DNA of 25,250 nt, from the IMG/VR virus record IMGVR_UViG_3300044678_000714, positions 1 through 25,250 of that record. One strand, written 5' to 3'. Of the stretch, positions 3,008 to 12,480 are shown in pieces. The notes under the pieces are model-generated. The model searched no databases and was not told the origin of the DNA. It was given only the letters and a program-made list of their open reading frames with translations. Source of the stretch: a virus. How positions within the stretch are numbered: the first letter of the stretch is position 1; every line of letters starts with the position of its first letter. The position numbers and the translations under genes were made by a program.

Positions 3008-4240
3008 TTAAGCCGACTTAACGTCTAAGTCATTGTTTTGTATAAGAACAGCCTCTTTCCCTGTGAACTCTTCCCAACGTTTGACAATAACGTCACAATA
3101 CTTTGGATCAAGTTCCATAGAAAAGTTATTTCTGCCTGTTTTTTCGCATCCCATCATAGTGCTGCCTGACCCACCAAATAAGTCTAAAACGTTGGCTTTT
3201 GCGTATGAACTGTTCTTTACAGCCTTTTCAATAAGCTCAACAGGTTTAGTTGTTGGGTGAAGTTCTGATTTCTTGGGGCGAGCCACATCCCAAAGGTCGG
3301 ATTGCTTTCTATCCTCAACTTGGCAGATACGTGATGCGGATTCGTTCCAACCATACCAAATAGGTTCATATTGGGTGTGGTAGTCCTTGCGTGAGAGAAC
3401 AAGGGTGTCTTTCGCCCAAATAATCGTGCTTGACCAGTGGAAACCGACTGTTCTTAGCCAATGGTCAATGACTGGCCATTCTTGGGCGGACATAACCACA
3501 TAAATTGGACAGCCAGGCTTTGATGCCATAAAAAGCGATGTGCAGACGTCTGAAATAAACTTATCCCAAGCGTCTTCATCCATGTGGTCGTTCATAATTG
3601 TGCGTGGTTTATATCCCATCGCATTGTTTTTATCCACAGCACCGTAGTTCACGTTCCATGGCGGATCTGTGAAAATCATGTCGGCTTTTGCGCCATCCAT
3701 CAATTTTTCAACGTCATCAATGCTTGTGCTATCGCCACACATTAATCGGTGGTTGCCAAGCTGATAAATGTCACCACGCTTTGTTTTTGGATCAACAGGC
3801 AACGGTGGCACTTCATCAGGGTCTGTATTACCCTCAATTTGGTCAGGCTCAAGCAATTTACTGAGTTCTTTGCTATCAAAGCCCAAAAGCTCAAGGTCAA
3901 AGCCTTCCTCGCCCAATTCAGTCAACTCAACCATTAAAAGGCCTGTATCCCACCCACCGTTCATGGCGAGTTGATTGTCGGCAATAATGTAAGCCTTCTT
4001 TTGAGTGTCGGTCATATCCTTAAGCTCAATGACAGGGACTTTATCCATGCCTAGCTTTCGTGCAGCCATTAAACGACCATGACCTGCAATCACACCCTTT
4101 TCGCCATCAACGAGGATTGGATTAGTCCAACCGAACTCTTTGATGCTTGCTGCGATCTGCGCAACTTGTGCGTCAGAATGGGTGCGACTGTTTTTTGCGT
4201 AAGGGATTAGTTCCGATACGTTAACTTGTTTGATTTGCAT
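3008..4240 (-). CDS. ParB-like domain fused to N6-adenine DNA methyltransferase
   Basis: A 410-residue two-domain protein. Residues 1 to about 95 are a ParB/sulfiredoxin-type fold with the hallmark GHGR at 53-56 and IIADNQLA near 85-92. Residues from about 150 to the end form a beta-class methyltransferase: DPPW (motif IV) at 192-195 comes before the AdoMet-binding FGGSGST (motif I) at 355-361, with HPTTKP at 328-333 between them. DPPW fits methylation of an exocyclic amino group, most often adenine N6. No restriction enzyme is nearby, so protection against host restriction or control of packaging is likelier than a restriction-modification pair. The start has AGGGG seven bases upstream and overlaps the preceding 56-residue gene by 20 bases. 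Confidence 0.92.
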   Translation of the reverse strand: MQIKQVNVSELIPYAKNSRTHSDAQVAQIAASIKEFGWTNPILVDGEKGVIAGHGRLMAARKLGMDKVPVIELKDMTDTQKKAYIIADNQLAMNGGWDTGLLMVELTELGEEGFDLELLGFDSKELSKLLEPDQIEGNTDPDEVPPLPVDPKTKRGDIYQLGNHRLMCGDSTSIDDVEKLMDGAKADMIFTDPPWNVNYGAVDKNNAMGYKPRTIMNDHMDEDAWDKFISDVCTSLFMASKPGCPIYVVMSAQEWPVIDHWLRTVGFHWSSTIIWAKDTLVLSRKDYHTQYEPIWYGWNESASRICQVEDRKQSDLWDVARPKKSELHPTTKPVELIEKAVKNSSYAKANVLDLFGGSGSTMMGCEKTGRNNFSMELDPKYCDVIVKRWEEFTGKEAVLIQNNDLDVKSA

Positions 4241-8585: not shown

Positions 8586-8620
8586 ATTTTCCTTTGTCAA
8601 AGGTAGTCGTTAAAAAGGGT

Positions 8621-8673
8621 GGGCTTGGCAGGCGGTGACTAATCGCTGTTCGGGTGCTACCCTAGCCATGCCC
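8621..8673 (-). terminator. Possible attenuator or terminator after the Cro-like gene
   Basis: On the leftward transcript GGGCATGGC (8673-8665) can pair with GCCAAGCCC (8629-8621), seven base pairs with a 2x2 internal loop. A short ACCC and then TTTTT follow (8616-8611). The loop also contains a small GGGT/ACCC hairpin. It lies in the 99-base gap between the Cro-like stop (8685) and the replication gene start (8585). The four-base gap before the T-run makes it weaker than a classic terminator. Confidence 0.35.
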
Positions 8674-8684
8674 ATAGGTTATCG

Positions 8685-8924
8685 TTAAACTTGCCTTTCA
8701 GCAAGCTCTGGCCATACAAACCGCCAAGTATCAGGAAACAACTCTTTTCTGTTAACTAATCCATGACTTTGCTTTTCAAGCTCGGCAGCCAAAAAATATA
8801 GCTTATCTTGGGGTATACCCTTGATTTTCCATTGTGCAACCGCAGGTGGGCTTACCTGGCAAAGCCTGGAAACCGCTGAAGTTCCGCCTAAAAGCTCAAT
8901 AATTTGTGGTTGTGTAAGTATCAT
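8685..8924 (-). CDS. Cro/YdaS-like HTH transcriptional regulator
   Basis: A 79-residue protein: TQPQIIELLGGTSAVSRLCQVSPPAVAQWKIKGIPQDKLYFLAAELE. The pattern of a short helix, GG-T-AVSRLCQVSPPAVAQWK recognition helix pair and IPQDK turn is the Cro/YdaS fold found as the first gene of lambdoid early operons. It should bind operators in the adjacent divergent promoter region. No Shine-Dalgarno sequence precedes the ATG, and the leftward promoter places the transcript start only two or three bases before it, so the message is probably leaderless. It is the first gene of the leftward arm, followed by the DUF1376 replication gene. No separate CI-like repressor is visible, so whether it acts as Cro or as the only repressor cannot be told. 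Confidence 0.85.
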   Translation of the reverse strand: MILTQPQIIELLGGTSAVSRLCQVSPPAVAQWKIKGIPQDKLYFLAAELEKQSHGLVNRKELFPDTWRFVWPELAERQV

Positions 8925-8933
8925 ATTAAGCTA

Positions 8934-8962
8934 AGTATAACCCAAGAATATATATTTTACAA
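8934..8962 (-). promoter_or_regulatory. Leftward early promoter for the Cro-like gene
   Basis: On the minus strand TTGTAA (8962-8957) and TATACT (8939-8934) are separated by exactly 17 bases. TATACT matches the sigma-70 -10 consensus at five of six positions and TTGTAA matches the -35 at four of six. The predicted transcript start is near 8927-8926, immediately before the ATG at 8924. One copy of the decamer TATTAAGCTA (8924-8933) abuts the -10 element, so a bound regulator would block it. Confidence 0.65.
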
Positions 8963-8967
8963 AGTTC

Positions 8968-8996
8968 TTGCACTTTTATTTAATTTAGCTTAATAT
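8968..8996 (+). promoter_or_regulatory. Rightward early promoter
   Basis: TTGCAC (8968-8973) and TAATAT (8991-8996) lie 17 bases apart in an AT-rich spacer, giving a sigma-70 type promoter reading toward the gene at 9038. The same architecture recurs at 11427-11455. The complement of the decamer TATTAAGCTA occupies 8986-8995 and covers the -10, so operator binding would shut the promoter. Transcription should begin near 9001-9003. Confidence 0.7.
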
Positions 8997-9003
8997 ATCT
9001 ATA

Positions 9004-9016
9004 CGTCAATTTGACG
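9004..9016 (+). promoter_or_regulatory. 5'-terminal leader hairpin (first copy)
   Basis: CGTCA (9004-9008) pairs with TGACG (9012-9016) around ATT. It begins eight bases after the -10, so it would form the very 5' end of the rightward mRNA, and it is followed by GTGAAA and the AGGA ribosome binding site. A matching element with different but compensated stem bases is at 11463-11476. Confidence 0.5.
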
Positions 9017-9037
9017 GTGAAAAAATAGGAAAAAATC

Positions 9038-9244
9038 ATGGATGAGCAAGCATCACAACACAATGACCGCCTACAAATGGAACGTGAATTAGAGTCCATT
9101 TTTCAGGATCTTGAAGACGGTTTAATTCCCACCTTTGACCAAATAGACATTTTGCGCTATCACTGCGGTTTGAAGGTTTACCCACGCACAATTCTTAATG
9201 ACGTTTTTAAAGACTTTGGCACAATTTATGGAGCATCAAAATGA
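9038..9244 (+). CDS. First gene of rightward operon, unknown function
   Basis: A 68-residue acidic protein (MDEQASQHNDRLQMERELESIFQ, then DLEDGLIPTFDQIDILRYHCGL). Its start has AGGA about seven bases upstream and it lies directly behind the rightward promoter and leader hairpin. The gene ends in an ATGA overlap with the putative ssDNA-binding protein. No family is recognised. By position it is the earliest rightward product, the place where lambdoid phages often keep antiterminators or host-takeover proteins, but nothing in its sequence confirms such a role. Confidence 0.7.
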   Translation: MDEQASQHNDRLQMERELESIFQDLEDGLIPTFDQIDILRYHCGLKVYPRTILNDVFKDFGTIYGASK

Positions 9245-9873
9245 TTCTTAAAGAAGAACAAATGGAAGGTAAAGATTTTAAGATTGCGCCAGTGGGAAAC
9301 CACTTGGCACGTTTATATCGCATTATTGACCTTGGCACACAAAAAACGGTGTGGGAAGGTGTGGAAAAAATGCAACGCAAGATTATGTTTAATTTTGAAT
9401 TGCATGGCGAAGATAACGAGGGTCAGCCTTTAACGACTGATGATGGCAAACCTTTAATGGTTACTAAGCGATATACAAGGTCATTCTTTGAAACTTCAGC
9501 CCTGCGCCAAGATTTGCAGGCTTGGAGAGGAAAAGAATTTACAGCAGACGAGCTACAAGGCTTTGATATTACGGTCTTACTTGGTAAGTTTTGCATGATT
9601 AACGTGATCCATAACAAAGCATCAAACGGTAAAACGTATGCCAACGTTAAAGGTTTAAGCCCTGTTCCTGCAGCCATGAAAAAATTAGGTGAGCCAAAGG
9701 GTGTAAACGATACATTCATTTTTGACCTGAACGCTTTTGATCAGGCCAAATTTGACACGTTGCCACAATGGTTGCAAGACACCATTAAAGAATCCGCAGA
9801 GTATCGTGGAACTGTGGCCTCAGGCAATCCTGCCAAGGTTTTGCAAGATATTGATGATGACGTGCCATTTTAA
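9241..9873 (+). CDS. Putative phage single-stranded DNA-binding protein
   Basis: A 210-residue protein: FKIAPVGNHLARLYRIIDLGTQK, then a strand-rich middle (KIMFNFELHG, MVTKRYTRSF, FCMINVIHNKASNGKTYANVKGLSPVP). It ends DIDDDVPF. That acidic tail with terminal Pro-Phe is the hallmark SSB C-terminal tip, used in bacterial SSB (DDDIPF) to recruit partner enzymes. The body does not look like a standard SSB OB fold by eye, though a beta-barrel with KTYANV-type strands is compatible. The ATG at 9241 has GGAG nine bases upstream and overlaps the previous stop. The setting beside an exonuclease on the arm equivalent to lambda pL suggests recombination or replication. Confidence 0.7.
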   Translation: MILKEEQMEGKDFKIAPVGNHLARLYRIIDLGTQKTVWEGVEKMQRKIMFNFELHGEDNEGQPLTTDDGKPLMVTKRYTRSFFETSALRQDLQAWRGKEFTADELQGFDITVLLGKFCMINVIHNKASNGKTYANVKGLSPVPAAMKKLGEPKGVNDTFIFDLNAFDQAKFDTLPQWLQDTIKESAEYRGTVASGNPAKVLQDIDDDVPF

Positions 9874-9881
9874 ATAATTAA

Positions 9882-9959
9882 GGGGTGAAAGCGGATGCTG
9901 ACTGCAAACAGCTACCGACTCTAGCGTCAGTGCAGCGAGTAGCCCCACCTTTATTATGA
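9882..9959 (+). other. Structured spacer with a 24-codon open frame
   Basis: The gap between the SSB-like gene and the HTH gene can fold into a nested stem: GGGG (9882-9885) with CCCC (9943-9946), GCTG-A-CTG (9897-9904) with CAG-TG-CAGC (9928-9936), and GCTA (9911-9914) with TAGC (9922-9925). ACCTTTATTATG follows. The same DNA holds an open frame from GTG 9885 to TGA 9959, whose stop overlaps the next ATG. The ribosome binding site AAGG is too close to that GTG to be convincing. It may be an attenuator, a processing site or a tiny gene. Confidence 0.35.
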
Positions 9960-10309
9960 ACAGAAAAGAATTACTACAAAAAAAATTATTGGAGCAAATG
10001 TCGCACACCCCAATGACTCGGACAGAAATGGCTGATTTTTTAGGTGTTTCTGTGGTGTTTATAGCTCGTTATATCACCCAACTTAGAAAAGCAAAGCAAA
10101 TATATATTCACCATTACGAGAGGACACCAAAGCATAAGCCTAAGTCGTTTTATGCGACAGGTGACCTGCCTGATGCGCCTGAATTGCCACCAATCCCTCA
10201 ACGTGAACTACAAAAACGTTACAGGCAGGAATCAAAAGGCAGTCCAAAGCATAAAACTTCAACATCAAAAATGGATATAGCAGCAAGTTGGCTATTTAAC
10301 CCAAAATGA
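9956..10309 (+). CDS. Winged-helix DNA-binding protein
   Basis: A 117-residue protein. Residues about 15-55 read MSHTPMTRTEMADFLGVSVV then FIARYITQLRKAKQIYIHHYERT, an HTH with a wing-like strand, of the MarR/DeoR-like type. The rest is Lys/Pro-rich and probably flexible (RTPKHKPKSF; KGSPKHKTSTSK), ending WLFNPK. It probably regulates transcription or binds DNA non-specifically; the target is unknown. The gene follows the structured spacer and overlaps the next microprotein by ATGA. Confidence 0.75.
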   Translation: MNRKELLQKKLLEQMSHTPMTRTEMADFLGVSVVFIARYITQLRKAKQIYIHHYERTPKHKPKSFYATGDLPDAPELPPIPQRELQKRYRQESKGSPKHKTSTSKMDIAASWLFNPK

Positions 10310-10404
10310 TCACAATTTTATGGGTGGTGTTGGGTGGCATCGGAATGTTGGCCTTGGCGATCCTGGCTATTTTGTTTGCTTTATGGTGGACACAAAATGA
10401 CTAA
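10306..10404 (+). CDS. Single-span membrane microprotein, 32 aa
   Basis: ATG 10306 overlaps the stop of the HTH gene and the frame ends at TAA 10404. The product is almost entirely one hydrophobic segment (ILWVVLGGIGMLALAILAIL) followed by FALWWTQND. No ribosome binding site is evident beyond coupling. No family is recognised. It overlaps the next membrane protein gene by 8 bases, forming a chain of overlapped starts. Confidence 0.55.
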   Translation: MITILWVVLGGIGMLALAILAILFALWWTQND

Positions 10405-10561
10405 GGTGGCCATCAAAACCGCTTGGGTTGCGTTATTTATCGGTGGAGTGGTCTTTGCTTATGGGCATGGATATAAAAGCGGTAAACACGCTCAAATCAG
10501 TATGGAATCAGCTATGCAAATAGCTAAAGCACAATTTACTTGCAAAATGGAGCAAAAATGA
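10397..10561 (+). CDS. Small membrane-anchored protein, 54 aa
   Basis: ATG 10397 is chosen over an in-frame start at 10334 because GGTGG lies just upstream and the N-terminus then reads MTKVAIKTAWVALFIGGVVFAYGHGY, a single transmembrane segment with a charged start. The rest (KSGKHAQISMESAMQIAKAQFTCKMEQK) is a short soluble helix. The gene overlaps the exonuclease start by ATGA. Function unknown. Confidence 0.65.
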   Translation: MTKVAIKTAWVALFIGGVVFAYGHGYKSGKHAQISMESAMQIAKAQFTCKMEQK

Positions 10562-11301
10562 TAATTAAACAAGCATCAGAATCAGGTCACTGGTATACAA
10601 AAACAGGCGAAACAGCCTATACAACAGAGGGTAAAACAGGGCTAAGGGCTACAACTTTGCGTGATGCTCGTAAATTAGACCTAGTCCCTAGTGTTACAAC
10701 TATCTTAGGTGTCGCAGCCAAACCAGGCTTGCAGACGTGGTTGCAAACTCAGGTTTTATTGGCAGCCTTAACTCTGCCACGCAAAGAAGGCGAGCCTGAG
10801 CAAGATTGGCTTGAGCGTGTGATGGCTGATTCAAAAGCCCAAACAAGGCAGGCTGCGGATCGTGGCACTGCAATTCATGGAGTTATTGAATCCTACTTTG
10901 AGCAGATTCCATCGCAAGACTGGCCACCATACGTCAAGAACGTGGAAAAAGCCCTTTTAGACACGTTTGGAGAGCAATTGTGGAACTCTGAGAAATCTTT
11001 TGCAAATGAGCTAGGGTATGGCGGTAAAGTTGATTTATCAGCCCCTAATATCGTGGTGGACTATAAAACCAAAGAAACCGACTTATCCAAAATTGAGCCA
11101 TATCACGAACATGAAATGCAATTGGCAGCTTATTGCGTTGGCATGGGTTACAAAATTGAGGATTGCCGAGCAGCGATTGTGTTTGTAAATGGCAAGACAA
11201 ATGAAGTAAAGTTATGCGAAATACCCCAGGCAAACTTAAAGTTGGCATGGGACTGTTTTACCCATCTTTTAGCGTTCTACCGTTTAAAGAACAATATTTA
11301 A
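10558..11301 (+). CDS. PD-(D/E)XK exonuclease
   Basis: A 247-residue protein from ATG 10558, with GGAG five bases upstream; a TTG at 10540 is less likely. The N-terminal part has LVPSVTTILGVAAKPGLQTW and DRGTAIHGVIESYF, seen in Cas4/RecB-like phage exonucleases. The catalytic core is GYGGKVDL (Asp), IVVDYKTKE (D-x-K) and HEMQLAAYCVGMGY, equivalent to the RecB-family Q-x3-Y motif. It probably degrades double-stranded DNA ends to feed a recombination or repair pathway with the nearby SSB-like protein. No recombinase of the Erf, Bet or RecT type is seen in the window. Confidence 0.85.
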   Translation: MIIKQASESGHWYTKTGETAYTTEGKTGLRATTLRDARKLDLVPSVTTILGVAAKPGLQTWLQTQVLLAALTLPRKEGEPEQDWLERVMADSKAQTRQAADRGTAIHGVIESYFEQIPSQDWPPYVKNVEKALLDTFGEQLWNSEKSFANELGYGGKVDLSAPNIVVDYKTKETDLSKIEPYHEHEMQLAAYCVGMGYKIEDCRAAIVFVNGKTNEVKLCEIPQANLKLAWDCFTHLLAFYRLKNNI

Positions 11302-11306
11302 AAAAA

Positions 11307-11382
11307 TGCCTTGTAGCTCAGTTGGTAGAGCATCGGACTGTTAATCCAAGGGTCGCAGGTTCAAGCCCTGCCGAGGCAGCCA
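11307..11382 (+). tRNA. tRNA-Asn (anticodon GTT)
   Basis: A 76-base cloverleaf can be drawn completely. The acceptor arms TGCCTTG and CGAGGCA pair with one G-U, the D stem is GCTC/GAGC with loop AGTTGGTA, the anticodon loop CTGTTAA has GTT at 11340-11342, the T stem is GCAGG/CCTGC with loop TTCAAGC, the discriminator is G and CCA is encoded. The anticodon stem TCGGA/TCCAA has one C-A mismatch at position 28-42. The gene begins five bases after the exonuclease stop and is probably co-transcribed. Confidence 0.95.
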
Positions 11383-11426
11383 AACTGTTGTATTTCTGCA
11401 ACACTCAAATTATTTTAATAAATGAC

Positions 11427-11455
11427 TTGCTTTAGGTATTAAGCTACCTTAATAT
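11427..11455 (+). promoter_or_regulatory. Second rightward promoter, same design as the first
   Basis: TTGCTT (11427-11432) and TAATAT (11450-11455) are 17 bases apart. The sequence from the -10 through CTATACGT and on to CGGTGAAA repeats the layout of 8991-9021. The decamer TATTAAGCTA lies in the spacer at 11437-11446; its half TATTAAG is mirrored by CTTAATA at 11448-11454, giving a palindromic operator over the -10. Confidence 0.7.
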
Positions 11456-11462
11456 ACCTATA

Positions 11463-11476
11463 CGTTCATAAGAACG
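11463..11476 (+). promoter_or_regulatory. 5'-terminal leader hairpin (second copy)
   Basis: CGTTC (11463-11467) pairs with GAACG (11472-11476) around ATAA. It starts eight bases after the -10, exactly as in the copy at 9004, and is followed by the same GTGAAA. Stem bases differ from the first copy in both arms but pairing is kept. Confidence 0.5.
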
Positions 11477-11497
11477 GTGAAATTAAGGAGAAATAAA

Positions 11498-11674
11498 ATG
11501 TTATTCCCAAAAGACACAGCTTTCAAAGTAGGCTTTACCAACGAGCAACAAGCCTTAGAGTGGGCTTGCAACAAGCACAAATTTGGTGGTTGTTATGAAA
11601 AAGTTGGAGAGAATCAATATTTAGCATATTGGTTGCCAAAAAATCACCCATTAGTTTCAGAATTTGCTTGGTAA
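11498..11674 (+). CDS. Small hypothetical protein, 58 aa
   Basis: ATG 11498 has a perfect AAGGAG seven bases upstream, so it is preferred to GTG 11477. The product (MLFPKDTAFKVGFTNEQQAL, CNKHKFGGCYEKVGENQYLAYW) looks like a compact alpha/beta domain. No family is recognised. It is the first gene behind the second rightward promoter and so likely an early product. Confidence 0.7.
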   Translation: MLFPKDTAFKVGFTNEQQALEWACNKHKFGGCYEKVGENQYLAYWLPKNHPLVSEFAW

Positions 11675-11684
11675 GGAGCTAATC

Positions 11685-11888
11685 ATGGAAATTTACGAAT
11701 ACGATTACGATGGCATCAAACTAGATATTCATTACCACACAGAAGATGGTGATGACAGCGTTGGCATGTTTGGTGTGCAAGTTTATGTAGAAGGCATATT
11801 CCACAAAGGTGAAGACATCACCGACCTTATTGGCAAATCGACTTACGAGTTTTTTGAATCTGAGCTAATGGAGTATGTAAATGGTTGA
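11685..11888 (+). CDS. Small acidic protein, 67 aa, unknown function
   Basis: ATG 11685 follows AAGGAG by six bases; an upstream ORF start at 11664 has no such signal. The product is strongly acidic (MEIYEYDYDGIKLDIHYHTED, then DGDDSVGMFGVQVYVEG, FFESELMEYVNG), with alternating strand-like segments. High negative charge in a small early protein is a feature shared with DNA-mimic inhibitors, but nothing else supports that here. Its end overlaps the next gene by 8 bases. Confidence 0.7.
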   Translation: MEIYEYDYDGIKLDIHYHTEDGDDSVGMFGVQVYVEGIFHKGEDITDLIGKSTYEFFESELMEYVNG

Positions 11889-11970
11889 TATTCTTAAAGG
11901 CTTATTCTTAGGGTTTTGTTTCTTTGTAATCCCATTAACGGTTTGGATTATCCGCACAGGTGGCCTATGA
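11881..11970 (+). CDS. Membrane microprotein, 29 aa
   Basis: ATG 11881 lies inside the end of the preceding gene and the stop TGA 11968-11970 overlaps the next ATG. The product is a single hydrophobic span (LFLGFCFFVIPLTVWII) with short charged ends. No family is recognised. The reading is supported by overlaps on both sides, though it is too short to be certain. Confidence 0.45.
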   Translation: MVDILKGLFLGFCFFVIPLTVWIIRTGGL

Positions 11971-12062
11971 AAGACCATATCCTAGGCTTTTTGTTAGCAA
12001 TTTGTTTTTGCGTGTTGTTTTTTGGAGCGATTCATGTTGCAAATGCAATACAAAAAATTTAA
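11967..12062 (+). CDS. Membrane microprotein, 31 aa
   Basis: ATG 11967 overlaps the previous stop (ATGA); the frame ends at TAA 12062. The product is one hydrophobic span (ILGFLLAICFCVLFFGAI) followed by HVANAIQKI. It overlaps the following gene by 29 bases. It may be an early membrane-acting peptide, but no function can be assigned. Confidence 0.45.
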   Translation: MKDHILGFLLAICFCVLFFGAIHVANAIQKI

Positions 12063-12480
12063 CCAAGAACTCCACGACATTTGCGATCCGCCTGCTCGTG
12101 AGGCGGTTGCAACGTGGCTTGAAAATCTTTGGTATGTTGATGCTCAACCCAACCCTGATAAATATGCGGTTGACCTGGTATTAAGCAAAAATGGCGAGCA
12201 TATTGGTTATGCCGAGGTTGAGGTGCGTGATTGGGGTATGAACTTCTGCCCTTACGACACCATTCATATTGCTCAACGCAAAGAAAAGCTGTTTGCGCAC
12301 CCAAGAACCACAATGTATGTGGTAACTAAAGAATATACCCACGCTTATTGGATAAAGGCTCACAAAATAAAAGACTGCCCCTTAATTGAAGTCCCAAACA
12401 GGGCTGTATCAAGGGGCGAGTATTTTTATGATGTTCCTAAAAACTTGTGGAACTTTGTGGATTTGCGTGAGGTTTTTTAA
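12034..12480 (+). CDS. Hypothetical protein, possible PD-(D/E)XK-like fold
   Basis: A 148-residue protein from ATG 12034, which has GGAG six bases upstream. The middle YAVDLVLSKNGEHIGYAEVEV resembles the D...E-x-(K) strand pair of restriction-like nucleases, though the expected Lys is replaced (EVEV). Next comes FAHPRTTMYVVTKEYTHAYWI, strand-rich. No named family is recognised, so nuclease activity is only a possibility. Its TAA shares bases with the TAA of the convergent endolysin gene, with no room for a terminator. Confidence 0.65.
   Translation: MLQMQYKKFNQELHDICDPPAREAVATWLENLWYVDAQPNPDKYAVDLVLSKNGEHIGYAEVEVRDWGMNFCPYDTIHIAQRKEKLFAHPRTTMYVVTKEYTHAYWIKAHKIKDCPLIEVPNRAVSRGEYFYDVPKNLWNFVDLREVF

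Follow-up and report, generated by a model that had tools for sequence, protein, structure and literature searches.

Comparison of a 25,250-nucleotide stretch of an uncultured phage genome (IMG/VR record IMGVR_UViG_3300044678_000714, positions 1 to 25,250; hereafter the window) with its relatives indicates that the early genes of these phages probably form a Cro-only, self-limiting regulon, assembled from units in which a promoter, an operator and a leader hairpin are combined. An earlier reading of the window had recorded one decamer at three promoters and proposed a three-promoter regulon of a Cro/YdaS-like protein in a phage with no visible CI; this observation is correct, yet understates what is present, as it overlooks the leader hairpin common to these promoters and the variable gene slot behind P2. 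The proposed regulon is supported by the recurrence of the operators among relatives, the joint change of operator form and Cro recognition helix, the loss of the operators where another Cro is encoded, and searches of 23 records that found no S24-type CI or integrase. The best reading of the data is that PR, P2 and a further position seen in relatives, P3, carry such units, with a hypervariable slot of small genes downstream of two of them.

Putative operators and promoters in the window and its relatives

Exact copies of the decamer TATTAAGCTA are present at 8924-8933 (+), 8986-8995 (-) and 11437-11446 (+), precisely where the first-pass annotation had placed them, and the 12-base inverted match reported for the divergent region (8923-8934 against 8985-8996) and the palindrome reported at the third site (Table 1) are likewise as described. 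The whole-window search at one mismatch that had been proposed as a check recovered three extra copies: the opposite arm of the third site, at 11445-11454 (-), and a pair at 12179 and 22110 that lie inside coding ORFs, form no dyad and were rejected as operators. The 6 copies at up to one mismatch compare with 2.1 expected, and at least 6 were seen in 2 of 100 shuffles. In first-order Markov simulations the mean expectation for exact copies was 0.15, and any 10-mer occurred thrice in the 1169 intergenic bases in 1 of 60 simulated genomes. The decamer is the sole non-repetitive 10-mer occurring thrice between genes in the window, the only others belonging to a simple CCA repeat at the end of the contig. 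Given the mismatch counts and simulations, the recurrence of the decamer is real and chance an unlikely cause; the statistics of the window alone are modest, and it is the comparison with relatives that settles the point.

The decamer belongs to a 14-bp dyad, TTAAG-N4-CTTAA, by which the functional unit is better described. The remark that there was no fourth copy holds for the exact decamer, but one more perfect dyad is found at 3008-3021, without a recognisable promoter. A near match at 612-628 was rejected as a further operator, lying in coding sequence and having no hairpin context.

The assignment of the three copies to three promoters, here termed PL, PR and P2, stands for the promoters themselves: a scan with the E. 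coli consensus finds PL, and PR and P2, while below the threshold of that scan, match each other and their counterparts in relatives. It does not stand for the position of the first copy, which is not on the PL -10 but between it and the cro start codon. PL and PR lie back to back with their -35 hexamers 5 bp apart, and neither of their sites in the window is a full dyad. The PL half-site reaches from the edge of the -10, across the predicted +1 near 8927, up to the start codon, and a transcript from this +1 would place only about 3 nt before the ATG of cro; this near-leaderless geometry is repeated among relatives, many of which have GTTAAG-ATAG-CTACATG at the equivalent place. At both PR and P2 the right half of the dyad overlaps the -10, and the two promoters have in common the stretch CTTAATATAYCTATACG with zero mismatch, followed by a hairpin and then by GTGAAA and a ribosome-binding site. 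PR has the same geometry in relatives, often with TTGACA as the -35, and P2 is located behind an exonuclease gene and a tRNA-Asn gene.

Table 1. Candidate elements of the early regulon in the window, with the basis of each assignment
Feature	Position	Strand	Description	Basis
cro	8685-8924	-	79-aa Cro/YdaS-like helix-turn-helix protein, presumed repressor	Pfam, PHROG, structure model
PL	8934-8962	-	TTGTAA (8957-8962), 17 bp, TATACT (8934-8939)	promoter scan, 9/12
PL operator	8923-8937	-	one conserved half-site, TTAGCTTAATAT (8923-8934)	decamer/inverted match; relatives
PR	8968-8996	+	TTGCAC (8968-8973), 17 bp, TAATAT (8991-8996); predicted +1 near 9003	geometry kept in relatives
PR operator	8980-8993	+	TTAAT-TTAG-CTTAA, one mismatch to the dyad, right half over -10	dyad comparison
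PR leader hairpin	9003-9019	+	A-CGUCA-AUU-UGACG-GUG	predicted fold -4.8 kcal/mol, z -1.4
First PR operon genes	9038-9873	+	68-aa protein; 210-aa PHROG 862 protein	ORFs, PHROG
Second HTH protein, PR operon	9956-10309		117 aa	Pfam search
P2	11427-11455	+	TTGCTT (11427-11432), 17 bp, TAATAT (11450-11455); predicted +1 near 11462	likeness to PR
P2 operator	11437-11454	+	full palindrome TATTAAG-CTAC-CTTAATA; full dyad 11439-11452	dyad comparison
P2 leader hairpin	11462-11479	+	A-CGUUC-AUAA-GAACG-GUG	predicted fold -5.4 kcal/mol, z -2.9
P2 genes	11498-12480	+	58-, 67- and 152-aa proteins	ORFs with no Pfam/PHROG match

The 79-aa Cro has one near-identical match in IMG/VR, and a profile search gave 286 matches, 80 of them retained; the 210-aa protein encoded next to it, searched independently, led to 20 loci. 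In L012, a relative 95% identical to the window over the aligned region, and in the 13 of these 20 loci at 55-60% identity to the 210-aa protein, a Cro homologue is encoded divergently to that gene. A divergent cro region of the window type is also present in MW202674 and MW202520, both deposited as circular genomes and neither with an annotated integrase or CI. A nucleotide search of annotated phages with the window DNA returned only tRNA matches, and the extended window motif retrieved only the 95% relative from IMG/VR, because the operator core is shared and the flanks are not. A bacterial genome collection yielded only two short partial matches to Cro (one pattern only, and weak evidence).

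The comparison with related phages that had been suggested was carried out on 62 distinct IMG/VR relatives, with dyads of at most one mismatch surveyed over 8 kb, and most of them have operators at equivalent promoters. The operators form three clusters only: 1) 85 lie in the intergenic region within 250 bp before cro; 2) 53 lie 1.75-3.25 kb into the divergent operon (P2); 3) 48 lie 0.5-1 kb after cro (P3). Only 16 were found elsewhere. The surveyed loci hold 246 operator-like sites, as against 25 in simulated sequence. Nearly all relatives have a site at the cro promoter, and at their PR, P2 and P3 the right operator arm lies over the -10. The window has PL, PR and P2; a P3 site was sought in it and is absent.

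Predicted hairpins at the transcript starts and the genes behind them

The transcripts expected from PR, P2 and P3, the majority of those under this putative control, have a short predicted hairpin at their start, beginning about 1 nt after the predicted +1. Taken alone, the two predicted hairpins of the window are unremarkable to modest against shuffles, and the case for them is a comparative one. The divergent promoter regions of the window and L012 are identical but for one compensated hairpin pair, C-G to T-A, which makes the PR hairpin of L012 CGUUA-AUU-UAACG. A hairpin of at least 5 Watson-Crick pairs is found 5-12 nt downstream of 67 of the 246 operator-like sites, compared with 3 of 246 for a control stretch that lies further downstream. 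A set of 27 dereplicated sites, chosen by operator, -10 and -35 alone and each having a usable -35, folds without exception at -2.5 kcal/mol or below at the predicted start. Across 116 sites, which include some PL-type and spurious sites without a hairpin, the mean fold is -4.8 kcal/mol at the predicted start, -1.3 in shuffled leaders and -0.9 thirty nt downstream.

The stems vary widely with pairing kept (CTGAC, CTAGC, CTGGC, ATGGC, ACTGC, ACTAC, ACGGC and ACCGC are among them). Stem-anchored 18-mers were compared because MAFFT put hairpins out of register when their loop lengths differed; in 19 stems all cells pair and 27 cells are altered on both sides, a count matched in 0 of 500 shuffles, though one that leans towards structure, the frame having been chosen on the stem. 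A frame-free covariation scan gave few strong pairs (best z 6.4), because loop lengths differ.

The hairpin is best read by analogy with the 5'-terminal stabilising stem-loop of the ompA type (Emory, Bouvet and Belasco 1992, as cited in PMC3997798). Like the latter, it is a short hairpin at, or a few nt from, the 5' end (here a predicted one), with a free ribosome-binding site downstream; unlike it, the hairpin is a repeated unit tied to putatively repressor-controlled phage promoters, and its stabilising effect is a prediction. The main alternative is an RNA signal for a protein or for RNA polymerase, as in HK022 put-like antitermination or a translational switch. Such a signal would account for the closing C-G and first loop base A, nearly invariant in one alignment, and for the GUGA that ends many stems, but it sits uneasily with stems and loops most of whose bases vary freely, with a Shine-Dalgarno sequence left free by the hairpin, and with a search of Rfam that matched no family; we regard it as rather unlikely. 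It is improbable that these palindromes serve a second protein as operators in the DNA: they are indeed short dyads adjoining promoters, but within one phage the arms at PR and at P2 are unlike in sequence, and the distance between arms is variable (3-6 nt in the most frequent stems), whereas their pairing and their placement with respect to the -10 are conserved. Among the open-access papers searched we found no precedent for operator-hairpin units in phages.

The P2 slot is hypervariable in relatives. The 44 distinct proteins encoded first behind P2 and P3 form 28 families, most of them having fewer than 100 residues, and Pfam searches with ten examples, of which the window supplied three, returned a single weak HTH match. 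In L043 and L052 members of one gene family follow different promoters, P2 in one phage and P3 in the other; joint movement of a gene with its promoter unit would give this pattern. We tentatively raise the possibility that promoter, Cro operator and start-site hairpin constitute one mobile unit before interchangeable small accessory genes, in which the hairpin may additionally be a dedicated RNA signal. If so, a new gene arriving in the P2 or P3 slot would at once be expressed early, protected at the 5' end of its mRNA and switched off by Cro.

The Cro protein and the form of the operators

Sequence matches place the 79-aa protein as a member of the YdaS/Cro group. It scores 32.9 bits against Pfam YdaS_toxin (PF15943), above the cut-off of 30, and 26.3 bits against P22_Cro (PF14549), below the cut-off of 30.2; the Cro relatives from L022, L008 and L009 are above the PF15943 cut-off and reach 34.8-39.6 bits against P22_Cro, above the cut-off there too. 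In PHROG it falls in PHROG 35, transcriptional repressor. The structure model, for which the alignment comprised the window and IMG/VR sequences only, is all-helical (pLDDT 87), and its best PDB matches, 3bd1 (Xfaso1 Cro) and 8co2 (CP-933P YdaS), are weak (E 0.05-0.15, TM 0.44-0.49).

Operator form follows the recognition helix of this protein. The clade L013-L025, with Gln in the helix (VQAVC), has sites of the TAAAG-N4-CTTTA type, which at PR lie in tandem over both the -35 and the -10 and which recur at P2. The helix [ST]VQAVC goes with TAAAG half-sites in 9 of 9 cases and S[PV][PA]A[VI] with TTAAG half-sites in 56 of 59, with 3 ties; one further TTAAG locus has no helix match. In L026-L030 the 210-aa gene is common to all and Cro is a different one. 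Relatives of this kind lack both operator forms: about 53 kb from L026-L029 and L035, where the 210-aa gene is kept beside another Cro, gave one operator match, at chance level. Because operator form tracks the helix and the operator is missing where Cro is another, Cro appears the most likely ligand of the dyads; the switch of helix and operator has two clades as its basis and may be one event.

Were the dyads bound instead by some other phage regulator or a host protein, the second HTH protein of the PR operon would be a candidate, but three observations make this very improbable: the cro promoter has a site in nearly all relatives, the half-site changes with the Cro helix, and the dyad is absent beside a different Cro although the 210-aa gene is kept. 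Least probable of all is that the shared sequence serves only the promoter, as an extended -10 or as a phage-specific polymerase signal: CTTAATAT does lie over the -10 at both PR and P2, and downstream bases are also common to both, but the left arm TTAAG sits in the spacer, the PL half-site is downstream of the -10, the dyad form persists in the TAAAG clade where the -10 differs, and operator form goes with the helix.

The proposed circuit and its relation to known Cro systems

Neither an integrase (PF00589) nor an S24-type CI (PF00717) was detected in any of 23 records, which include two genomes deposited as circular and complete; in control searches PF00717 and PF00589 matched in 10 and 14 of 14 genomes, respectively. 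Weak HTH_3 matches, below the cut-off, occurred in 3 of the 23. Integration is excluded only as far as the Pfam models reach, and the window is a partial genome. With respect to the hallmarks of a lambdoid switch, this phage group has operator dyads over divergent promoters, and S24 CI and integrase were not detected.

We infer a circuit in which host RNA polymerase, after infection, would use three sigma-70-type promoters: 1) PL, driving cro and the leftward replication genes; 2) PR, driving the rightward recombination and nuclease genes; 3) P2, driving a block of small variable genes. As the 79-aa Cro builds up, it would occupy the TTAAG-N4-CTTAA dyads, covering the -10 at PR and at P2 as well as the start region of PL, and would shut off early transcription, cro included, via -10 occlusion, so that early transcription would limit itself. 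The hairpin (4-8 bp) at the start of the PR and P2 transcripts would shield the 5' end from decay, and the cro mRNA would begin almost at its AUG. With no CI-like competitor, the circuit would therefore act as a pulse generator or timer, and not as a bistable lysis-lysogeny switch.

Cro is known as one half of lysogeny switches. The circuit proposed here appears to differ from known Cro systems in that no CI or integrase was detected, in the operators at internal promoters and in the hairpin leaders. YdaS of prophage CP-933P of E. coli O157:H7 (PMC8630535) is a Cro analogue of the same Pfam family that binds 18-bp palindromes (half-site consensus GTTTAGTAA) at divergent promoters as well as at one more promoter; unlike the present phages, this prophage encodes analogues of both CI (PaaR2) and CII (YdaT), its leaderless regulator mRNA is that of the CI analogue, whereas here it is cro that is predicted to be near-leaderless, and no leader hairpins are described for it in the passages considered. 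The Cro proteins of PY54, N15 and phiKO2 likewise use a palindrome, of 16 bp, in which the outer base pairs set phage specificity, and the cro and cI mRNAs are leaderless; however, PY54 Cro binds one site only and leaves its own promoter untouched, and these are temperate phages with CI (PMC4488713).

P22 and lambda Cro (OR, OL) resemble the present protein as small HTH repressors of divergent early promoters and a distant promoter. In contrast to those phages, no CI was detected here, the dyads are single or paired and not triple operators, and extra promoters, P2 and P3, lie inside operons and have predicted hairpin leaders. The phages of this group also carry P22-like virion genes.

These results point to a self-limiting early-gene switch without a lysogeny repressor: freshwater phages of a large uncultured group appear to rely on a Cro-type protein acting alone. 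The operator code of this protein, readable from sequence and shifting with the recognition helix, offers a testable rule for locating early promoters, and the rule leads to a hypervariable slot of small early genes, of the kind in which host-takeover and anti-defence proteins are often found.

Operator-bearing promoters and their possible movement

In many relatives, a promoter carrying both the operator and the predicted hairpin (P3) lies 0.5–1 kb downstream, in the cro direction, of cro, the gene of the presumed repressor (examples, among others, in the table); no P3 was found in the window. Related small proteins are encoded behind P2, the second promoter of the divergent operon, in locus L043 and behind P3 in locus L052, and these sequences hence suggest that a gene may have moved together with its promoter, as a unit, between the P2 and P3 slots. 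In the window, an additional dyad, a perfect TTAAGCCGACTTAA, sits where the methyltransferase gene ends, some 20 bp upstream of the terminase small-subunit start, with no convincing promoter adjoining it.

RNA genes and a variable spacer

A complete tRNA-Asn(gtt) gene lies immediately upstream of P2 in the window; a search of the related loci L012–L025 recovered no tRNA genes, and L037 has one. The int-alpA RNA candidate is flanked by cro on one side and by the DUF1376 replication gene on the other, and the same family scores above its cut-off in two relatives. The spacer between the 210-aa and HTH genes of the rightward operon is G+C-rich and possibly structured; its L007 version retains both ends, with the middle swapped for unrelated sequence.

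Features located in the window and in related viral loci (L handles)
Feature	Locus	Position	Strand	Remarks
P3	L046	1978
P3	L048	4934
P3	L057	4889
P3	L062	2574
Additional dyad	window	3008-3021
tRNA-Asn(gtt)	window	11307-11382
tRNA gene	L037	1096-1168
int-alpA RNA (RF02996) candidate	window	8608-8672	minus	33.6 bits, E 9e-5; below curated 35.8
RF02996	L026	4021-4090
RF02996	L009	1213-1279
Spacer	window	9874-9955
Betaproteobacteria-1 RNA (RF02932)	L022	3574-3695	minus	92 bits

Genome completeness and possible host

Terminase, P22-like head-closure and tail genes were recognised in the window (1-25250) and, in contrast to complete relatives, no portal or coat gene was, so the record appears to be an incomplete genome. 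The RF02932 match in a relative offers a hint of a betaproteobacterial host.
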